Positions 45,870-50,992 of a stretch of DNA of 64,000 nucleotides are shown here, one piece after another. Below the pieces are notes generated by a model that saw only the letters and a program-made list of their open reading frames with translations, was not told the DNA's origin and did no database searches. Within the stretch, counting starts at the first letter, position 1. Each line of letters opens with the position of its first letter. The stretch covers positions 1,426,001-1,490,000 of the forward strand of contig NZ_LT702999.1 in the NCBI RefSeq assembly GCF_900149685.1, in the 5' to 3' direction. Source of the DNA: Erythrobacter sp. Alg231-14 (GTDB lineage Bacteria; Pseudomonadota; Alphaproteobacteria; Sphingomonadales; Sphingomonadaceae). The position numbers and the translations under genes were made by a program.

Positions 45870-46808
45870 CTATTCGGCAAGAAATTCCCTTAGCAAGGCA
45901 TACGTATCCTTTGCCTCGCGCGTGGGTACGATCGCCATGTAAACGTGCGGCGATGCTTCGTATTCATACAGCTTCGCATCCACGCCTGCATCGCGCAATT
46001 TGCCCGCAAATGTCCGCGAATCCACGATGAACAGATCATGCCGGCCGGTCCAAATGCGTGTGGGTGGCAGCAATGCGAGATCATCTTTGGCGGTGTAAAG
46101 CGGGCTGCATGCTGGCGAAGAGGGATCGCGATCATCGGACCAGATCGTGCCCATCGCGCGGACCGCGCCGATTTTCAGCATGAAGTCATTCGGTTCTACC
46201 GCCTGCATCGCTTCGTCCCGCATTGTGACATCAAGCCATGGGGCAAACAAAGCCAGCTTGCCGGGCGTCGGACCGCCAGCTTTGGCCAAACGCATCGCAA
46301 GACTAAAGGCCATATGGCCCCCCGCGCTATCGCCATTGAGGATGATCTTCGCCGGATCATGTTCGCCTGCCAATTTCGCAAAGGCGGCATCGGCCAATTC
46401 ATCCTGACGCGAATAATGCGCCTCTGGCACCACATCATAAAGCGGCAGAGACACGCTCATACCGCATTGTTCGACCAACGCTTGTGCCAAGGGCCAATGT
46501 TCTTTGAACATCGGCAACACAAAGCCCCCGCCGTGGAAATACAGCATATGCCATTCTGCGGGACCGGATTTTGGATGCAGAGTGACGACTTTCTGTCCGG
46601 CGGCGGTCCACTCTTCCACTTGGAACTTCTGATTGAAATTGGCCGGCATAGGCGCGTCAACGGGAGGGGTCCGGTTGGCCAGATACGGCGCAATCTCGTC
46701 TGCTTGCCGCGGAAAGACCGACGACCGTTTGCTCATGATCCATTTGACCGTGCGCATCATAATGCTTGGTTTCGGGCTGCGCAGTTCAATTGATGTGTCG
46801 GTCAGCAT
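45870..46808 (-). CDS. Alpha/beta hydrolase (hormone-sensitive lipase family)
   Basis: A 312-residue esterase/lipase. The oxyanion motif HGGGFVLP and nucleophile motif GDSAGGHMA are typical of the HSL (family IV) esterases, with the acid in the GRHDLFIVD segment and His in ASPHVYM. It probably hydrolyses short acyl esters. The ATG at 46808 has GGAGA at 6-7 nt; the longer frame to 46835 is not needed. Confidence 0.88.
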   Translation of the reverse strand: MLTDTSIELRSPKPSIMMRTVKWIMSKRSSVFPRQADEIAPYLANRTPPVDAPMPANFNQKFQVEEWTAAGQKVVTLHPKSGPAEWHMLYFHGGGFVLPMFKEHWPLAQALVEQCGMSVSLPLYDVVPEAHYSRQDELADAAFAKLAGEHDPAKIILNGDSAGGHMAFSLAMRLAKAGGPTPGKLALFAPWLDVTMRDEAMQAVEPNDFMLKIGAVRAMGTIWSDDRDPSSPACSPLYTAKDDLALLPPTRIWTGRHDLFIVDSRTFAGKLRDAGVDAKLYEYEASPHVYMAIVPTREAKDTYALLREFLAE

Positions 46809-46889
46809 ACATTCTCTCCAAAGCCTATCGGCCAAAAAGAGACTGAACGAGTGGGAGTGGAAGTCAAGATGAGCGGACCAGCGCCGAGA

Positions 46890-47741
46890 TCACGGATTGA
46901 TGCCGGTAATGATGCCTTCTTGTAACCACTGACCCAGTATGGCCCCCGCACGCATTGCGGCCTCATGGACGCTTTCTGGCGACGGATCGAGATCATCCCC
47001 GATCAATTGCCCGATAAGGTCGGCATAGGTCGCGCCCTCTTGCATGATCGCAAATGCATCGACGTGATCTGCTTGCGCCATGATGAAAGTCGGACGCTCG
47101 CCTTCGCGCCAAACGATACAGGCTTGCGCCTCGGATAATTGGGCATTGGGCCTGATGTAGCCGTTTGTTTCTGATGTTGTGAGTGGTGCGCCGTCGCCTT
47201 CCACCGGTGCATCTTCGCCGAGCGATCGCCAAATCATAGCCAGATCGTGTTCGACCAAACGGCATGTGGCCCTCGGCCCAAATTCCAAACGCAACGCCTC
47301 CCATTCGGCATCGCCAAACGCAGCTGTCGCAGCGCCGAAGGCGGCCGGGTCCATCGGTGTGGTATCCGGCGCCGTTGCCAAGTCGAGCATAGCGCGCTCC
47401 AGCCATGCCAGCTCAGAAATCTCAGGGTTTTGACCAAAAAACTGCGCGCAGGTCGCGTCGAAACCCACTCCGGCATCATCCAACGTCCAGCCGGTAGGAG
47501 GGTGTTTGATCACGTGATTGATGCTCGCCTGGGCAAAGGGTTGATCGCCGGCATATCGCGCGGTTCGTTCATACGTATCCGTCAAGGATCCCAACAACGC
47601 TGCCCGATAATTGCCGCGATACACCGCCATCCCGGCCGTCTGCCGGTTGCTCCACCCTTCGGGTAATGGCGCTGCATCATCCAAAATGGCGCGGAGAAAG
47701 TCGGCCTGTCTTTGAGCCAAAGATGTGGAAGCGCCGGTCAT
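46890..47741 (-). CDS. bufC: Bufferin maturation partner BufC (DUF2063, HvfC-like)
   Basis: A 283-residue protein with the DUF2063 N-terminal domain (QADFLRAILDDAAPLPEG, MAVYRGNYRAALLGSLTDTY, ARYAGDQPF) and a C-terminal helical and beta domain. DUF2063 proteins are the obligate partners of DUF692 MNIO enzymes; they bind the precursor and present it to the enzyme. It overlaps bufB by 4 nt on the minus strand, so enzyme and partner are co-translated. Both are read from a SigF-type promoter at 48771-48746. Partner role is established for the family; the substrate here is inferred to be the product of 48932-49213. Confidence 0.85.
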   Translation of the reverse strand: MTGASTSLAQRQADFLRAILDDAAPLPEGWSNRQTAGMAVYRGNYRAALLGSLTDTYERTARYAGDQPFAQASINHVIKHPPTGWTLDDAGVGFDATCAQFFGQNPEISELAWLERAMLDLATAPDTTPMDPAAFGAATAAFGDAEWEALRLEFGPRATCRLVEHDLAMIWRSLGEDAPVEGDGAPLTTSETNGYIRPNAQLSEAQACIVWREGERPTFIMAQADHVDAFAIMQEGATYADLIGQLIGDDLDPSPESVHEAAMRAGAILGQWLQEGIITGINP

Positions 47742-48613
47742 GCAAGAACCGGTTCACGTTGATCATTCGCAATCCCGCGTCCCCGATCAAGTTCCATCAA
47801 CAAATGCGACAAAGGTGGAATATCTTCATCGCGTTCGATCATCGTAGCCACCGGCTGTGGCAACATGGTGAGCGCCTGAGCGTACAAGCCCCAAACATCG
47901 TCGCACACGGCGCGATCATGGGTATCGATAATGATGTCGCGTTCTGGGGTTGCCGGTTCATGGCCCGCCAAATGAATTTGCCGCACACGATCGAGCGGCA
48001 ATCCCGCCAAATATTCCTGCGCTGAAAAGCCGTGATTGCGGCTCGACACGTAGATATTGTTCACATCAAGCAGCAAGTAACACCCGGTGCGCTGCGCCAT
48101 CGCGCTCAAGAATTCCCATTCCGTCATCTCATCTTCGGGGAAGGTGAGATAGCTGGACGGATTTTCGAACAACATCGCCCGGCCCAACGTGTTTTGCGCA
48201 GCATCGATGTTGTCACACACCGCCTGCAACGCCTCTTGGGTCAACGGCATTGGCAAAAGATCGTGGGAATTGTGCGCGCTTGTCCTCGTCCAACACAGAT
48301 GGTCGGAAACCCAAAGCGGATCGATGCGCTGCTCCAATTTCTTCAATTTGGTCAAATAATCGGCGTCAAGGCCATCTGCCGAACCAATCGACATTGACAC
48401 GCCGTGGATGATCACGGGGAGCATTTCGCGCACCTTTTCTAAGATGCGCAGCTGGCGGCCGCCTTCGATCATGTAATTTTCGCTGATGACTTCCACGAAA
48501 TCCACTTTGGGCACACCGCCGTCACGCGGGCTCAAGAAATCGTCATAGTGCGTGCGCCTCAGACCAAGGCCGAAACCGCTGAACGGTTTGATAGGATCAT
48601 GTTGCTTTTGCAT
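47738..48613 (-). CDS. bufB: MNIO-family peptide-modifying enzyme BufB (DUF692)
   Basis: A 291-residue multinuclear non-heme iron oxidase with a TIM-barrel fold. Conserved ligand-type residues are visible: H70 (IIHGVSMSIG), H105 (VSDHLCW), E150 (LFENPSSY), D183 and the Asn pair (LLDVNNIYV), H214 and H218 (IHLAGHEP), D230/H232 (IIDTHDRAV) and E260. Family members install oxazolone/thioamide or 5-thiooxazole groups on precursor-peptide cysteines using O2. Here the likely substrate is the divergent DUF2282 peptide. Translation starts at the ATG at 48613; the predicted leader from the SigF-type promoter is about 125 nt. Confidence 0.92.
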   Translation of the reverse strand: MQKQHDPIKPFSGFGLGLRRTHYDDFLSPRDGGVPKVDFVEVISENYMIEGGRQLRILEKVREMLPVIIHGVSMSIGSADGLDADYLTKLKKLEQRIDPLWVSDHLCWTRTSAHNSHDLLPMPLTQEALQAVCDNIDAAQNTLGRAMLFENPSSYLTFPEDEMTEWEFLSAMAQRTGCYLLLDVNNIYVSSRNHGFSAQEYLAGLPLDRVRQIHLAGHEPATPERDIIIDTHDRAVCDDVWGLYAQALTMLPQPVATMIERDEDIPPLSHLLMELDRGRGIANDQREPVLA

Positions 48614-48710
48614 ATGCGCCTTTCATAGCAGACCATCCCAAAACGCACATTCCCAAAGATGCGATCCCATCATGGGCAAAGCCCGTTTGCGTGCGAATGT
48701 TTTGGACAAG

Positions 48711-48736
48711 AGCCCGGTTTTGGGCTTTCTTTCTAT
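48711..48736 (+). terminator. Possible plus-strand terminator between bufB and bufA
   Basis: AGCCC (48711) and GGGCT (48722) form a short stem around GGTTTT, followed by TTCTTTCT on the plus strand. No plus gene lies just upstream, so it might block antisense or read-through transcription; weak evidence. Confidence 0.3.
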
Positions 48737-48745
48737 AGAGGGAGG

Positions 48746-48771
48746 TTCGCAGCAATCCTTACGCCGGTTAC
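48746..48771 (-). promoter_or_regulatory. SigF-type ECF promoter of bufBC
   Basis: On the minus strand GTAACC (48771-48766), a 16-bp spacer and CGAA (48749-48746). This equals the motif I recall for SigF-dependent promoters of Caulobacter (GTAACC-N16-CGAA). It points at bufB with a leader of about 125 nt. The identical arrangement occurs on the other strand 69 bp away. Confidence 0.82.
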
Positions 48772-48839
48772 TCGCGCGAAAGTAGGCCGGCAACGGAACG
48801 CGAGAAAAACACAATCATTCAAAGTTTTTTGACATCGAT

Positions 48840-48865
48840 GTAACCACCCGGTGTGGCCACGCGAA
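48840..48865 (+). promoter_or_regulatory. SigF-type ECF promoter of bufA-doxX-sigF-nrsF
   Basis: GTAACC (48840-48845), 16-bp spacer and CGAA (48862-48865) on the plus strand, exact to the recalled SigF motif. It would start transcription near 48872, about 60 nt before bufA. Because sigF and nrsF follow in the same direction, it also implies autoregulation. Confidence 0.85.
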
Positions 48866-48931
48866 TGACAGTCCAGAGCCGACGATCAAGTCGGCGCTTG
48901 AATAAGAACACAGTTTAGAAGAGGAAATGTC

Positions 48932-49213
48932 ATGAAAGCCAAATCAATTGCCGGCATCGCCGGTCTCGCCCTCACCGCCACCATCACTGCCGGTATCGCA
49001 ACGGCTCCTGTCGCGGCACAAAGCTCTAAAGAAAAATGCTATGGCGTTTCGCTTGCTGGCGAAAACGATTGCGCCGCTGGACCAGGCACAAGCTGCGCCG
49101 GCACATCGACACGCGATTACCAAGGCAACGCCTGGACATATGTCGACACTGGCACATGCACCAGCATCTCCACGCCTAAAGGCCGCGGATCGTTGACACC
49201 CATCAACCGGTAA
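48932..49213 (+). CDS. bufA: Bufferin precursor peptide BufA1 (DUF2282)
   Basis: A 93-residue precursor with an N-terminal signal peptide (about 1-29, cleavage near APVAAQ). The mature part carries four cysteines, C36 (KEKCYGVS), C47 (ENDCAAGPG), C55 (GTSCAGTS) and C76 (TGTCTS), in the DUF2282 pattern with DYQGNAW between. In studied bufferins the two central Cys become 5-thiooxazoles and the peptide sequesters copper in the periplasm. The start has AGAGGA at 7 nt. It is preceded by a SigF-type promoter and followed by two hairpins before doxX. The modified peptide is inferred, not seen. Confidence 0.93.
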
Positions 49214-49272
49214 CTGTTTGCGCAAACAGTAGCCCAATAGGTGGCGGTCTCTCAGGCATCATGGAGACCGCC
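49213..49272 (+). promoter_or_regulatory. Two intercistronic hairpins between bufA and doxX
   Basis: ACTGTTTGCGCAAACAGT (49213-49230) is a perfect 18-bp palindrome directly at the bufA stop. GGCGGTCTC (49243-49251) and GAGACCGCC (49264-49272) form a second stem. No T tract follows either. They could stabilise the bufA mRNA or attenuate downstream genes, so that precursor is made in excess over DoxX, SigF and NrsF. Confidence 0.55.
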
Positions 49273-49297
49273 AACCAAACAACCCTAGGAGGGAAGA

Positions 49298-49771
49298 ATG
49301 AGCGGACTAGTATCACTTTGGAACCGGATCACCGGCATTTTGTCGGGTACCACGGTTGAAAGCATCGTGTTGTTTTTGGCACGCATCGCGCTCGCAGGAA
49401 TTTTCTGGCGGTCGTACGAAACCAAAGTCGAAGACGGCACATGGTTCAAAATCGACGAAGTGCAGTATTTCCTGTTTGAAAACGAATTTGCAGGATTGCC
49501 GCTTTCGCCTGACTTGGCCGTACCAATGGCAACATATGCGGAATTCCTGTTCCCGGTCTTGTTGGTGCTTGGCTTGTTCAGCCGGTTCTCAGCAGCCGCA
49601 TTGGCGGTGATGGCATTGGTCATTCAGATCTTTGTCTTCCCAACGATGGATCACTTCTTCGGTTGGGCGATTACGATCCTCGCTTTGGCGGGAATCATCA
49701 TTAGCCGCGGACCAGGCGTCATTGGAATCGATAAGGTTCTAAGCCTGGTGACCGGTTCGAAAGCAGCGTAG
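49298..49771 (+). CDS. DoxX family membrane protein
   Basis: A 157-residue protein with four membrane helices and the DoxX pattern: LARIALAGIFWRSYETKVED, PVLLVLGLFSRFSAAALAVM, then DHFFGWAITILALAGIIISRG. DoxX proteins regularly accompany MNIO/bufferin operons (HvfD-like), perhaps handling electrons, quinones or the product; function unproven. It has a strong AGGAGG-like site and lies between bufA and sigF, 11 nt before the latter. Confidence 0.85.
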   Translation: MSGLVSLWNRITGILSGTTVESIVLFLARIALAGIFWRSYETKVEDGTWFKIDEVQYFLFENEFAGLPLSPDLAVPMATYAEFLFPVLLVLGLFSRFSAAALAVMALVIQIFVFPTMDHFFGWAITILALAGIIISRGPGVIGIDKVLSLVTGSKAA

Positions 49772-49782
49772 GCCTCAGGTCA

Positions 49783-50313
49783 GTGGTTGCTGATGAACCC
49801 ACTTTCGCCCGCCTCATGGCAGCGACACAGGACGGCGACAAAGCCGCCGGTAATGTGTTGCTGACCGAGGTGGGCGTATGGTTGGAGCGGTATTTTCGCC
49901 GCCGCGTGCCACCGCACTCGATCGATGATCTGGTGCAAGAAGTTCTGATCGCGTTTTATACAAAGCGCGCGACATGGGACCCGGCTCGCCCCTTTCTGCC
50001 ATGGCTTGCTGCCATTGCTCGGTATCGTTGGGTCGATCACCTGCGCAAGGTCTACAAGCATGACAGCAAGGAATTGATGGAAGACGACGCCGTAGAAGAC
50101 AGTGAAGAAGATGTCGTCTTGGCCCGTGTAAGCCTTGATCGTTTGTTCGGGCAGCTTCCTGAAAAGCAGGCTGAAGTTATTGAAATGGTCAAAATTGGCG
50201 GCTTATCCATCCGCGAAGCGGCCGAAAAAACGGGACAAAGCGAAAGCCTAGTCAAAGTGAATATCCATCGTGGCCTTAAGAAAATGGCGACAATGGTTGA
50301 GAAAGCAGATTGA
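49783..50313 (+). CDS. sigF: ECF sigma factor, SigF-like
   Basis: A 176-residue ECF sigma factor. Region 2 reads SIDDLVQEVLIAFYTKRATW and PWLAAIARYRWVDHLRK; region 4 reads FGQLPEKQAEVIEMVKIGGL, SIREAAEKTGQSESLVKVNI. It resembles Caulobacter SigF (ECF16 group), which responds to heavy metals and oxidants. The start is GTG at 49783 after AGGT. NrsF follows after 1 nt. Both recognised promoters in the locus match the SigF motif, so it likely drives the whole locus including itself. Confidence 0.9.
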   Translation: MVADEPTFARLMAATQDGDKAAGNVLLTEVGVWLERYFRRRVPPHSIDDLVQEVLIAFYTKRATWDPARPFLPWLAAIARYRWVDHLRKVYKHDSKELMEDDAVEDSEEDVVLARVSLDRLFGQLPEKQAEVIEMVKIGGLSIREAAEKTGQSESLVKVNIHRGLKKMATMVEKAD

Positions 50314-50314
50314 A

Positions 50315-50992
50315 ATGAACACCCCTCCAACAAACCCACCTAAAGACGCGATGAGTCGTGAAGATCTGATCGCGTCTTTGACCGAAGATCTGACCCCGGT
50401 GAAACGGGTCAAGCCGGTCGAAGGGGTGGCTCTGATTGCTTTTGCGACGGTCGTCGCGCTGGTCGCATCCATTGCCGTTTACGAATGGTGGGGTGGCCTG
50501 TTGACCGGAGAGGCATCGGGCTATTTCATCATCACGCATGGATTGCTGCTTGTGCTTGGCGCGGCCAGCACCGCCGCGTTGGTGACGGGCGCTATGCCGC
50601 GCGTGGGTACGCGCGCAAACGCACCTTTGTGGAGCGCGATCATGCTGGCCATCTTGCCGGCGGGCGCCATTATCAATCTGATGTCTGGCAACGGCAATCA
50701 CGCACACGAAGGGTTGAATGATCCGGTGGCGTATATGTGCACGATGGCTTCCCTTTCTGCGGGCGCTTTGGTTTTGATTGCTGCGGTTTTGTTCCTGCGG
50801 CGCGGTGCCCCTGTTTCGATTGAACGTTCGGCATGGCTTTCGGGTCTGGCCGCGGGTTCGTTGGGCACACTCGCCTATGGCATCACCTGCCCGCTCGATA
50901 CGTTTTCGCATGTCGGATTGTGGCACGTTGCCCCCGTAGCGATCGGCGCGGTGTTTGCCCGGATTGTGGTTCCCCCGCTTATCCGTTGGTAA
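50315..50992 (+). CDS. nrsF: NrsF anti-sigma factor (DUF1109)
   Basis: A 225-residue membrane protein with six predicted helices (about 38-58, 70-92, 105-125, 140-162, 172-190, 200-220) after a cytoplasmic N-terminus (SREDLIASLTEDLTPVKRV) that should bind SigF. The family's two conserved periplasmic cysteines are C142 (AYMCTMASL) and C192 (GITCPLDTF), 50 residues apart, as I recall for Caulobacter NrsF, where they sense metals/oxidants. The end GLWHVAPVAIGAVFARI is highly typical. A shorter start at 50351 is possible. Confidence 0.92.
   Translation: MNTPPTNPPKDAMSREDLIASLTEDLTPVKRVKPVEGVALIAFATVVALVASIAVYEWWGGLLTGEASGYFIITHGLLLVLGAASTAALVTGAMPRVGTRANAPLWSAIMLAILPAGAIINLMSGNGNHAHEGLNDPVAYMCTMASLSAGALVLIAAVLFLRRGAPVSIERSAWLSGLAAGSLGTLAYGITCPLDTFSHVGLWHVAPVAIGAVFARIVVPPLIRW

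Follow-up and report, generated by a model that had tools for sequence, protein, structure and literature searches.

The closest described system is that of Caulobacter crescentus, where the bufferin operon CC3254-3257, which SigF controls, and sigF-nrsF (CC3253-3252) encode the same protein families as the locus analysed here. In the accessible part of PMC3511200, the Caulobacter sigma-F promoter is GTAACC-N16-CGAA and the cysteine pair of NrsF is spaced by 50 residues, both as in our locus; the same part reports that sigma-F responds to chromium and cadmium, and that generators of reactive oxygen species do not induce its genes. According to the available portion of PMC8224329, the Caulobacter SigF regulon is induced by copper in all conditions tested and a sigF mutant is copper-sensitive. 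A Brucella ECF16 system responds to hypochlorous acid (PMC8315932, in the sections available). The arrangement differs, since C. crescentus has one bufABCD operon and a separate sigF-nrsF transcript, whereas our locus runs bufA-doxX-sigF-nrsF together and has a divergent bufBC with its own sigma-F site.

Mixed Buf1/Buf2 clusters are also known, either divergent (e.g., Qipengyuania) or co-directional (e.g., Dyella, Luteibacter and Pseudomonas); 'Pep4' in PMC8719888 looks like a co-directional one. They have the same BufB/BufC lineage as our locus, and the divergent ones also share the BufA1-DoxX-SigF-NrsF arm and the paired promoters. The mixed clusters keep BufA2 ahead of bufB, whereas the Erythrobacter-type clade is without BufA2. 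Its protein families identify the locus as a bufferin locus of the Buf1 (DUF2282) kind; it comes from a marine Erythrobacter relative. As a whole, we read it as a Buf1 system with a predicted autoregulated SigF/NrsF switch, probably descended from a double cluster, and give this reading a probability of about 75%.

Gene content and layout of the locus

The locus occupies positions 46890-50992 of the window, the 64,000-nucleotide stretch of DNA that was analysed. It consists of six open reading frames, whose families were assigned with Pfam and NCBIfam; the Pfam scores of all six proteins exceed their cut-offs. On the minus strand, bufC (46890-47741) encodes the DUF2063 partner with an RRE-like domain at its C-terminus (PF09836, 53.5 bits) and bufB (47738-48613) the MNIO bufferin maturase (PF05114, MbnB_TglH_ChrH, 345.3 bits), the two frames overlapping by 4 bp. 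Diverging from them on the plus strand are bufA (48932-49213), which encodes a Buf1 (DUF2282) precursor of 93 aa (PF10048, 84.8 bits), a bufD-like doxX membrane protein gene (49298-49771; PF07681, 52.5 bits), the ECF sigma factor gene sigF with a GTG start (49783-50313; Sigma70_r4_2, 55 bits; Sigma70_r2, 44 bits) and the anti-sigma factor gene nrsF (50315-50992). The DoxX protein scores below the cut-off of the HvfX-family NCBIfam model (37.9 vs. 80). The first-pass annotation had identified a bufferin system from its precursor, BufB, BufC and DoxX, all of which were found, and had described maturation genes that diverge from the precursor in departure from the bufA-B-C-D order; the gene table agrees on both points. 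It had also placed the SigF/NrsF pair directly behind the precursor. The pair does belong to the locus, but doxX separates bufA from sigF.

The SigF/NrsF pair and its predicted promoters

The bufB/bufA gap holds two exact GTAACC-N16-CGAA matches, one per direction: the match at 48746-48771 on the minus strand points toward bufB, and that at 48840-48865 on the plus strand points toward bufA. Both fit the ECF16 promoter pattern GTAAC-N17-CGAA and are predicted promoters. Outside this gap, the 64 kb window contains no further exact sigma-F site. The divergent layout, for which the first-pass annotation had proposed a search, recurs among relatives, for example in Erythrobacter longus DSM 6997 (L168), and a pair of ECF16-consensus sites facing both ways was present in 48 of the 49 divergent loci measured, compared with 2 matches in 511,234 strand-bases of flanking sequence. 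New here are these oppositely directed matches between bufB and bufA, together with the recurrence of such pairs in divergent loci. Among the Erythrobacter-type loci with both sites, 14 of 15 have GTAACG on the bufB side, one base off the Caulobacter form.

Genome-wide, the motif was not enriched (12 exact N16 sites vs. 21 for a reversed-pattern control), and the count is uninformative. By position, 10 of the 12 N16 sites lie upstream of a same-strand start codon vs. 2 of the 11 N15/N17 sites (Fisher p 0.003, counted by eye with sites within a longer frame set aside). Counting L017 as upstream (it falls within the last part of a frame but 91 bp ahead of the following one) gives 3 of 11 and p 0.012. 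A glutathione-transferase site (L011, L138, L158) is not counted as part of the regulon, since nearly the same stretch, including the spacer, is also found in G102 and G104. Sites L004 and L019 were rejected as promoters, being located in or across reading frames. Sites L012 and L022, which precede genes, are possible members, although no matching site was seen among those listed for G012 and G091.

The sigma factor is assigned to the SigF/ECF16 type by its neighbour, an NrsF/DUF1109 anti-sigma factor (PF06532, 108.6 bits) that adjoins it; this NrsF scores below the cut-off of the narrower NF042994 equivalog (36.7 vs. 300). Its C142 and C192, 50 residues apart, are invariant in an alignment of nine proteins. 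The two exact promoter matches and this cysteine pair back the SigF control that had been predicted for the locus. We propose that copper in the periplasm, or a different metal or oxidant that reacts with thiols, would act on the NrsF cysteine pair and free SigF, which would then fire the back-to-back promoters of bufA-doxX-sigF-nrsF and bufB-bufC. Transcription of the former would provide feedback together with its own brake. SigF may also fire a distant third promoter, that of a lipoprotein BufA.

The main signal and purpose of the same machinery could be something other than copper, namely hypochlorite or a different oxidant or metal that reacts with thiols. We consider this rather unlikely. 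The Brucella response to hypochlorous acid, the chromium and cadmium responses of Caulobacter sigma-F, and the thioredoxin/CcdA and pyridine-nucleotide-disulfide-oxidoreductase genes in the footprinted regulon here are in its favour, but the copper induction of the Caulobacter regulon, the copper sensitivity of the mutant and the lack of induction by generators of reactive oxygen species argue for a switch that would respond to copper.

One maturase and two Buf1 precursors

The cysteines C36, C47, C55 and C76 of BufA, whose positions had been given correctly, are invariant in five aligned BufA proteins. By eye, its N-terminus has a lysine, a hydrophobic stretch and an AxA-like site and resembles a Sec signal peptide. 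BufA scores 19.6 against the Buf2 model NF050166 (cut-off 60), and the EGKCG motif of oxazolin (HvfA) is absent from its sequence. BufB passes the NCBIfam bufferin-maturase equivalog NF050167 (366.2 bits, cut-off 310) and falls below the methanobactin MbnB equivalog (75.9 bits vs. 325); counterparts of the Asn, Asp and His essential in HvfB are present, as read by eye. BufC has no NCBIfam match. In the PDB, its AlphaFold model (mean pLDDT 87) is closest to chain A in TglHI entries (E 1.7e-4 and 2.8e-4; chain A was taken as the partner TglI), with the RRE protein TbiB1 next as a weak match (E 0.38).

The locus had been called self-contained. It is not, because the genome has one MNIO (bufB is the sole PF05114 match at E <= 0.001) but two DUF2282 precursors; it has one NrsF. 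The second DUF2282 gene encodes a distant predicted lipoprotein and is preceded by its own sigma-F-type site. The lipobox of this protein, LAAAC, is not the commonest form. The lipidated MNIO products DybA and NedA (accessible part of PMC12636315) also have a lipoprotein-signal substrate, as predicted for the second BufA; E. coli expression was used to test them, whereas the second BufA is a distant Buf1 paralogue and is predicted only. By analogy with Caulobacter and other systems, BufBC would turn the central BufA cysteines into 5-thiooxazoles in the cytoplasm, Sec would export both peptides, one soluble and one probably membrane-anchored, and the exported peptides would bind excess copper after induction.

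The BufB tree has 99 rows, with the C. crescentus BufB itself absent and several Buf1-linked rows on long branches. A 100/100 branch separates 22 BufBs whose genes come directly after bufA1 from the 77 others. The window BufB is split from all 22, outside the Buf1-linked MNIO subgroup, and groups with the Buf2-linked BufBs; the BufB of Caulobacter sp. S45 (L205_3241), of the plain BufA1-linked type, lies on the opposite side of the branch. Buf2 clusters (NF050166) have this BufB lineage in common with the window, but the six-cysteine BufA2 has no match at E <= 0.01 in this genome or in G012 and G091.

BufBC might be imagined as a relic of a Buf2 pathway that leaves the Buf1 peptides to act unmodified, as the tracking of precursor families by MNIO subgroups (PMC12452194, in the part available) would allow. 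We regard this as improbable: BufB, BufC and the two BufA forms have been retained along with sigma-F sites, their aligned sequences have conserved residues, and both precursor classes occur in four survey genomes that have just one MNIO (G044, G050, G068, G077). If our reading of maturation by BufBC after descent from a double cluster is true, it becomes testable whether one MNIO-partner pair processes two unlike precursor classes and what sets the specificity. The family offers a natural before/after set, single-MNIO relatives with both precursors vs. the clade that dropped one.

The BufA2 position between bufA and bufB

Of 80 related loci, 32 carry bufA2 precisely in the slot that separates bufA1 from the divergent bufB, the interval that corresponds to the bufB leader here (48614-48745, minus strand), and 27 of these 32 share the same NrsF-SigF-DoxX-BufA1 arm. 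These frequencies are biased because the loci were chosen by similarity to the window BufB; genes were called with small custom profiles (that of SigF from one sequence). The 20 BufA2-less Erythrobacter-type rows form one clade (95/85) nested among double clusters. The most plausible reading of the layout is a double bufferin cluster minus BufA2, in which a Buf2-lineage enzyme would be left with Buf1 substrates. The first-pass annotation, right about the bufferin identity, had missed this lineage and the BufA2 position. Ancestrally, BufA2 would have stood ahead of bufB, and the window BufBC would therefore come from a Buf2-tied lineage; the loss of BufA2 in this clade would have left only Buf1 substrates.

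A simple inversion of an ordinary Buf1 cluster, splitting bufA from bufB-bufC with BufA2 never involved, would suit the plain A-B-C-D order of Caulobacter and the Erythrobacter-type leaders without a visible BufA2 remnant, but it is highly improbable and was set aside because of where BufB falls in the tree and where BufA2 lies in related loci, with locus L179 also against it. The remnant search applied a simple residue pattern to the window gap and to 16 measured Erythrobacter-type gaps, each read in its three frames on the bufB strand; it found none, and neither proves nor disproves the loss of BufA2.

Returning to descent from a double cluster, we tentatively suggest, at somewhat less than even odds, a broader scenario. 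One BufB-BufC pair would ancestrally have matured both Buf1 and Buf2 peptides; Erythrobacter would have lost the Buf2 peptide, and a lipid-anchored Buf1 encoded elsewhere, behind the same kind of promoter, would have joined the pathway. The sigma-F regulon would also reach a periplasmic thioredoxin/CcdA, a VTT-oxidoreductase fusion, a DoxX-oxidoreductase fusion and a YHS lipoprotein, an envelope metal/redox response wider than reported for Caulobacter. The lipoprotein BufA paralogue was found in 14 of 15 BufA2-less genomes vs. 0 of 15 BufA2-bearing genomes, an association that may be a single coincidence because the loss of BufA2 and the paralogue both map to one clade. Locus L179, which lies near the Erythrobacter clade in the BufB tree (weakly, 88/30; the wider node including L183 has 99/96), contains BufA2, and the stretch immediately ahead of its bufB looks similar by eye.

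Locus architecture and predicted chemistry

All six frames named in the first-pass annotation were recovered as reading frames, and family profile searches assigned them to the families it gave. The genes lie in the order bufC and bufB on the minus strand, a 318-bp gap, and bufA, doxX, sigF and nrsF on the plus strand (46890-50992). The bufB and bufC genes overlap by 4 bp, and 1 bp separates sigF from nrsF. The gene after bufA is doxX, not sigF as had been stated. The locus is also not self-contained, since a second DUF2282 gene lies 0.75 Mb away in the 3.14-Mb, two-contig genome, which has one MNIO gene, one NrsF gene and two DUF2282 genes. In an alignment, the second product shared the four-cysteine core of BufA. 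Its first hydrophobic stretch is followed by LAAAC, which we take to be lipobox-like by the lipobox rule (hereafter lipo-BufA), and its gene has an exact sigma-F site of its own. A search for BufA2 with NF050166 (E up to 0.01) gave no match in this genome or in its sisters G012 and G091. The 13 named loci closest to this one by BufB were 77-83% identical in that protein; most carry Erythrobacter titles, the others being a Qipengyuania sp. and an Erythrobacteraceae bacterium. The host is accordingly an Erythrobacter or close kin, and we label this group Erythrobacter-type.

In relatives, bufferin cysteines are converted to 5-thiooxazoles and copper is sequestered in the periplasm (PMC12452194); this modification is installed in all MNIO-PME1 cases characterised so far (PMC13097082). 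By extension from these relatives, the same chemistry would operate here. The essential HvfB residues N175, D242 and H244 (PMC13419390) correspond, in our reading via a 3BWW alignment, to N185 or N186, D230 and H232 of BufB. The BufC model shows two joined domains, one helical and one RRE-like; its best match was chain A of TglHI, and the RRE protein TbiB1 was a weak third.

An alpha/beta hydrolase gene (Abhydrolase_3; 45870-46835) lies behind bufC on the same strand, and similar frames follow bufC at the G012 and G091 loci. In two genomes (stretches L071 and L072), bufC is followed by a secreted protein with a QGCSSCPPAD motif, presumably DUF1223; the G091 copy (L152) has its own sigma-F site in front.

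Predicted sigma-F promoters and their probable signal

Caulobacter sigma-F recognises GTAACC-N16-CGAA (PMC3511200), and the broader ECF16 consensus is (T/C)GTAAC-N17-CGAA (PMC8315932). The bufB/bufA gap contained two exact Caulobacter-type sites, one facing bufB (48746-48771, minus strand) and one facing bufA (48840-48865, plus strand); no further GTAAC-N17-CGAA match was found across the 64-kb window. We surveyed this pattern in 80 named loci, of which 49 were divergent and measurable by script (a looser rule gives 53, leaving four outside the measurement). Sites facing both ways were present in 48 of the 49, all but L171; the flanking sequence of these loci contained 2 matches in 511,234 strand-bases. 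Among 17 Erythrobacter-type loci submitted, 16 were measurable and 15 had both sites; the bufB-side site read GTAACG rather than GTAACC in 14 of these 15.

For the wider regulon, we compared exact sites, mostly with diverged spacers, upstream of equivalent genes in three genomes (this one, G012 and G091), with names taken from Pfam for this genome's copies and sister copies matched by eye. Sites preceded bufA, lipo-bufA, a thioredoxin-CcdA gene and a VTT-domain oxidoreductase gene in all three genomes, and a DoxX-oxidoreductase fusion gene and a YHS lipoprotein gene in two. The bufBC site was exact in two and reads GTAACG in the third. The genome-wide motif total showed no enrichment. In G091, sites also preceded genes resembling, by eye, arsenite methyltransferase (L145) and cyclopropane-fatty-acid synthase (L137).

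NrsF C142 and C192 were invariant among nine aligned proteins, and their 50-residue spacing equals that of cysteines 131/181 in Caulobacter and 129/179 in Brucella NrsF. Because the Caulobacter SigF regulon is induced by copper and a sigF mutant is copper-sensitive (PMC8224329), copper would by analogy be the likeliest signal here, hypochlorite or thiol-reactive metals other than copper being the rival candidates.

BufA2 and lipo-BufA in related loci

The 80 loci were picked by similarity to the window BufB, which biases the sample, and their genes were called with small profiles built for this analysis (that for SigF from a single sequence). BufA1 (the bufA product) and BufA2 occurred together in 59 loci, 35 of them also with SigF and NrsF; SigF, NrsF and BufA2 co-occurred in 36, one of which (L224) lacked BufA1. 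The 18 loci without BufA2 were 17 Erythrobacter-type loci (L159-L174, L177) and L201 from Massilia. In 32 of the 80, BufA1 and BufB were divergent and BufA2 sat immediately between them, with the NrsF-SigF-DoxX-BufA1 arm intact in 27 of these; sigma/NrsF genes lay in between in six. Another 17, e.g. from Dyella, Luteibacter and Pseudomonas, carried BufA1-DoxX-BufA2-BufB on one strand, resembling 'Pep4' as listed in PMC8719888. Several double clusters (within L181-L196) showed, by eye, a GC-rich hairpin-like stretch just before bufB and behind BufA2, which may act as an attenuator in favour of the precursor.

Lipo-BufA was sought in 30 genomes chosen from the 80, requiring the match to include the N-terminus. 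It matched in 14 of 15 BufA2-less genomes versus 0 of 15 BufA2-bearing ones; the sole BufA2-less genome without a match, G116, is a 2.2-Mb MAG. The lipobox-like stretch was LAAAC in 12 of the 14 and ATAGC in two (L248, L249). Adding this genome, G012 and G091 brought the set to 17, of which 12 had a sigma-F site upstream of lipo-bufA; no such site was found for L239, L248, L249, L250 or L252. Since BufA2 absence and lipo-BufA both belong to one clade here, they count as one association, not fifteen.

BufB phylogeny and the order-wide survey

The BufB tree held 99 of 135 rows (36 were omitted by choice of representatives), five of them labelled by hand from gene calls or coordinates where the script saw no precursor. 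A 100/100 branch separated the window BufB from every one of the 22 BufBs encoded after a BufA1 gene, the group concerned by the program's long-branch warning. The 20 BufA2-less Erythrobacter-type rows formed one clade (95/85) near the BufA2-bearing loci L179 and L183 (22-row node, 99/96; L179 alone, 88/30). A bufferin locus with SigF/NrsF is already known, and lipidated bufferins have been predicted as a subset (PMC12452194; PMC12636315); neither Erythrobacter bufferins nor the reading that BufA2 was lost appeared among the best matches in open-licence literature.

Gene coordinates from 99 surveyed genomes in the order agreed with the tree. The bufA1 and bufB genes were divergent without BufA2 in this genome (G000), G012 and G091, and divergent with BufA2 in front of bufB in G050, G068 and G077; NrsF and BufA2 lay between them in G039 and G044. 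Over the cut-off, G044, G050, G068 and G077 each had a single MNIO match, a single BufA1 and a single BufA2; if both precursors are modified there, they must share the enzyme. In the relative G039, a DUF2282 match (C6:952778-952939) carried an in-frame TAG inside its open frame.
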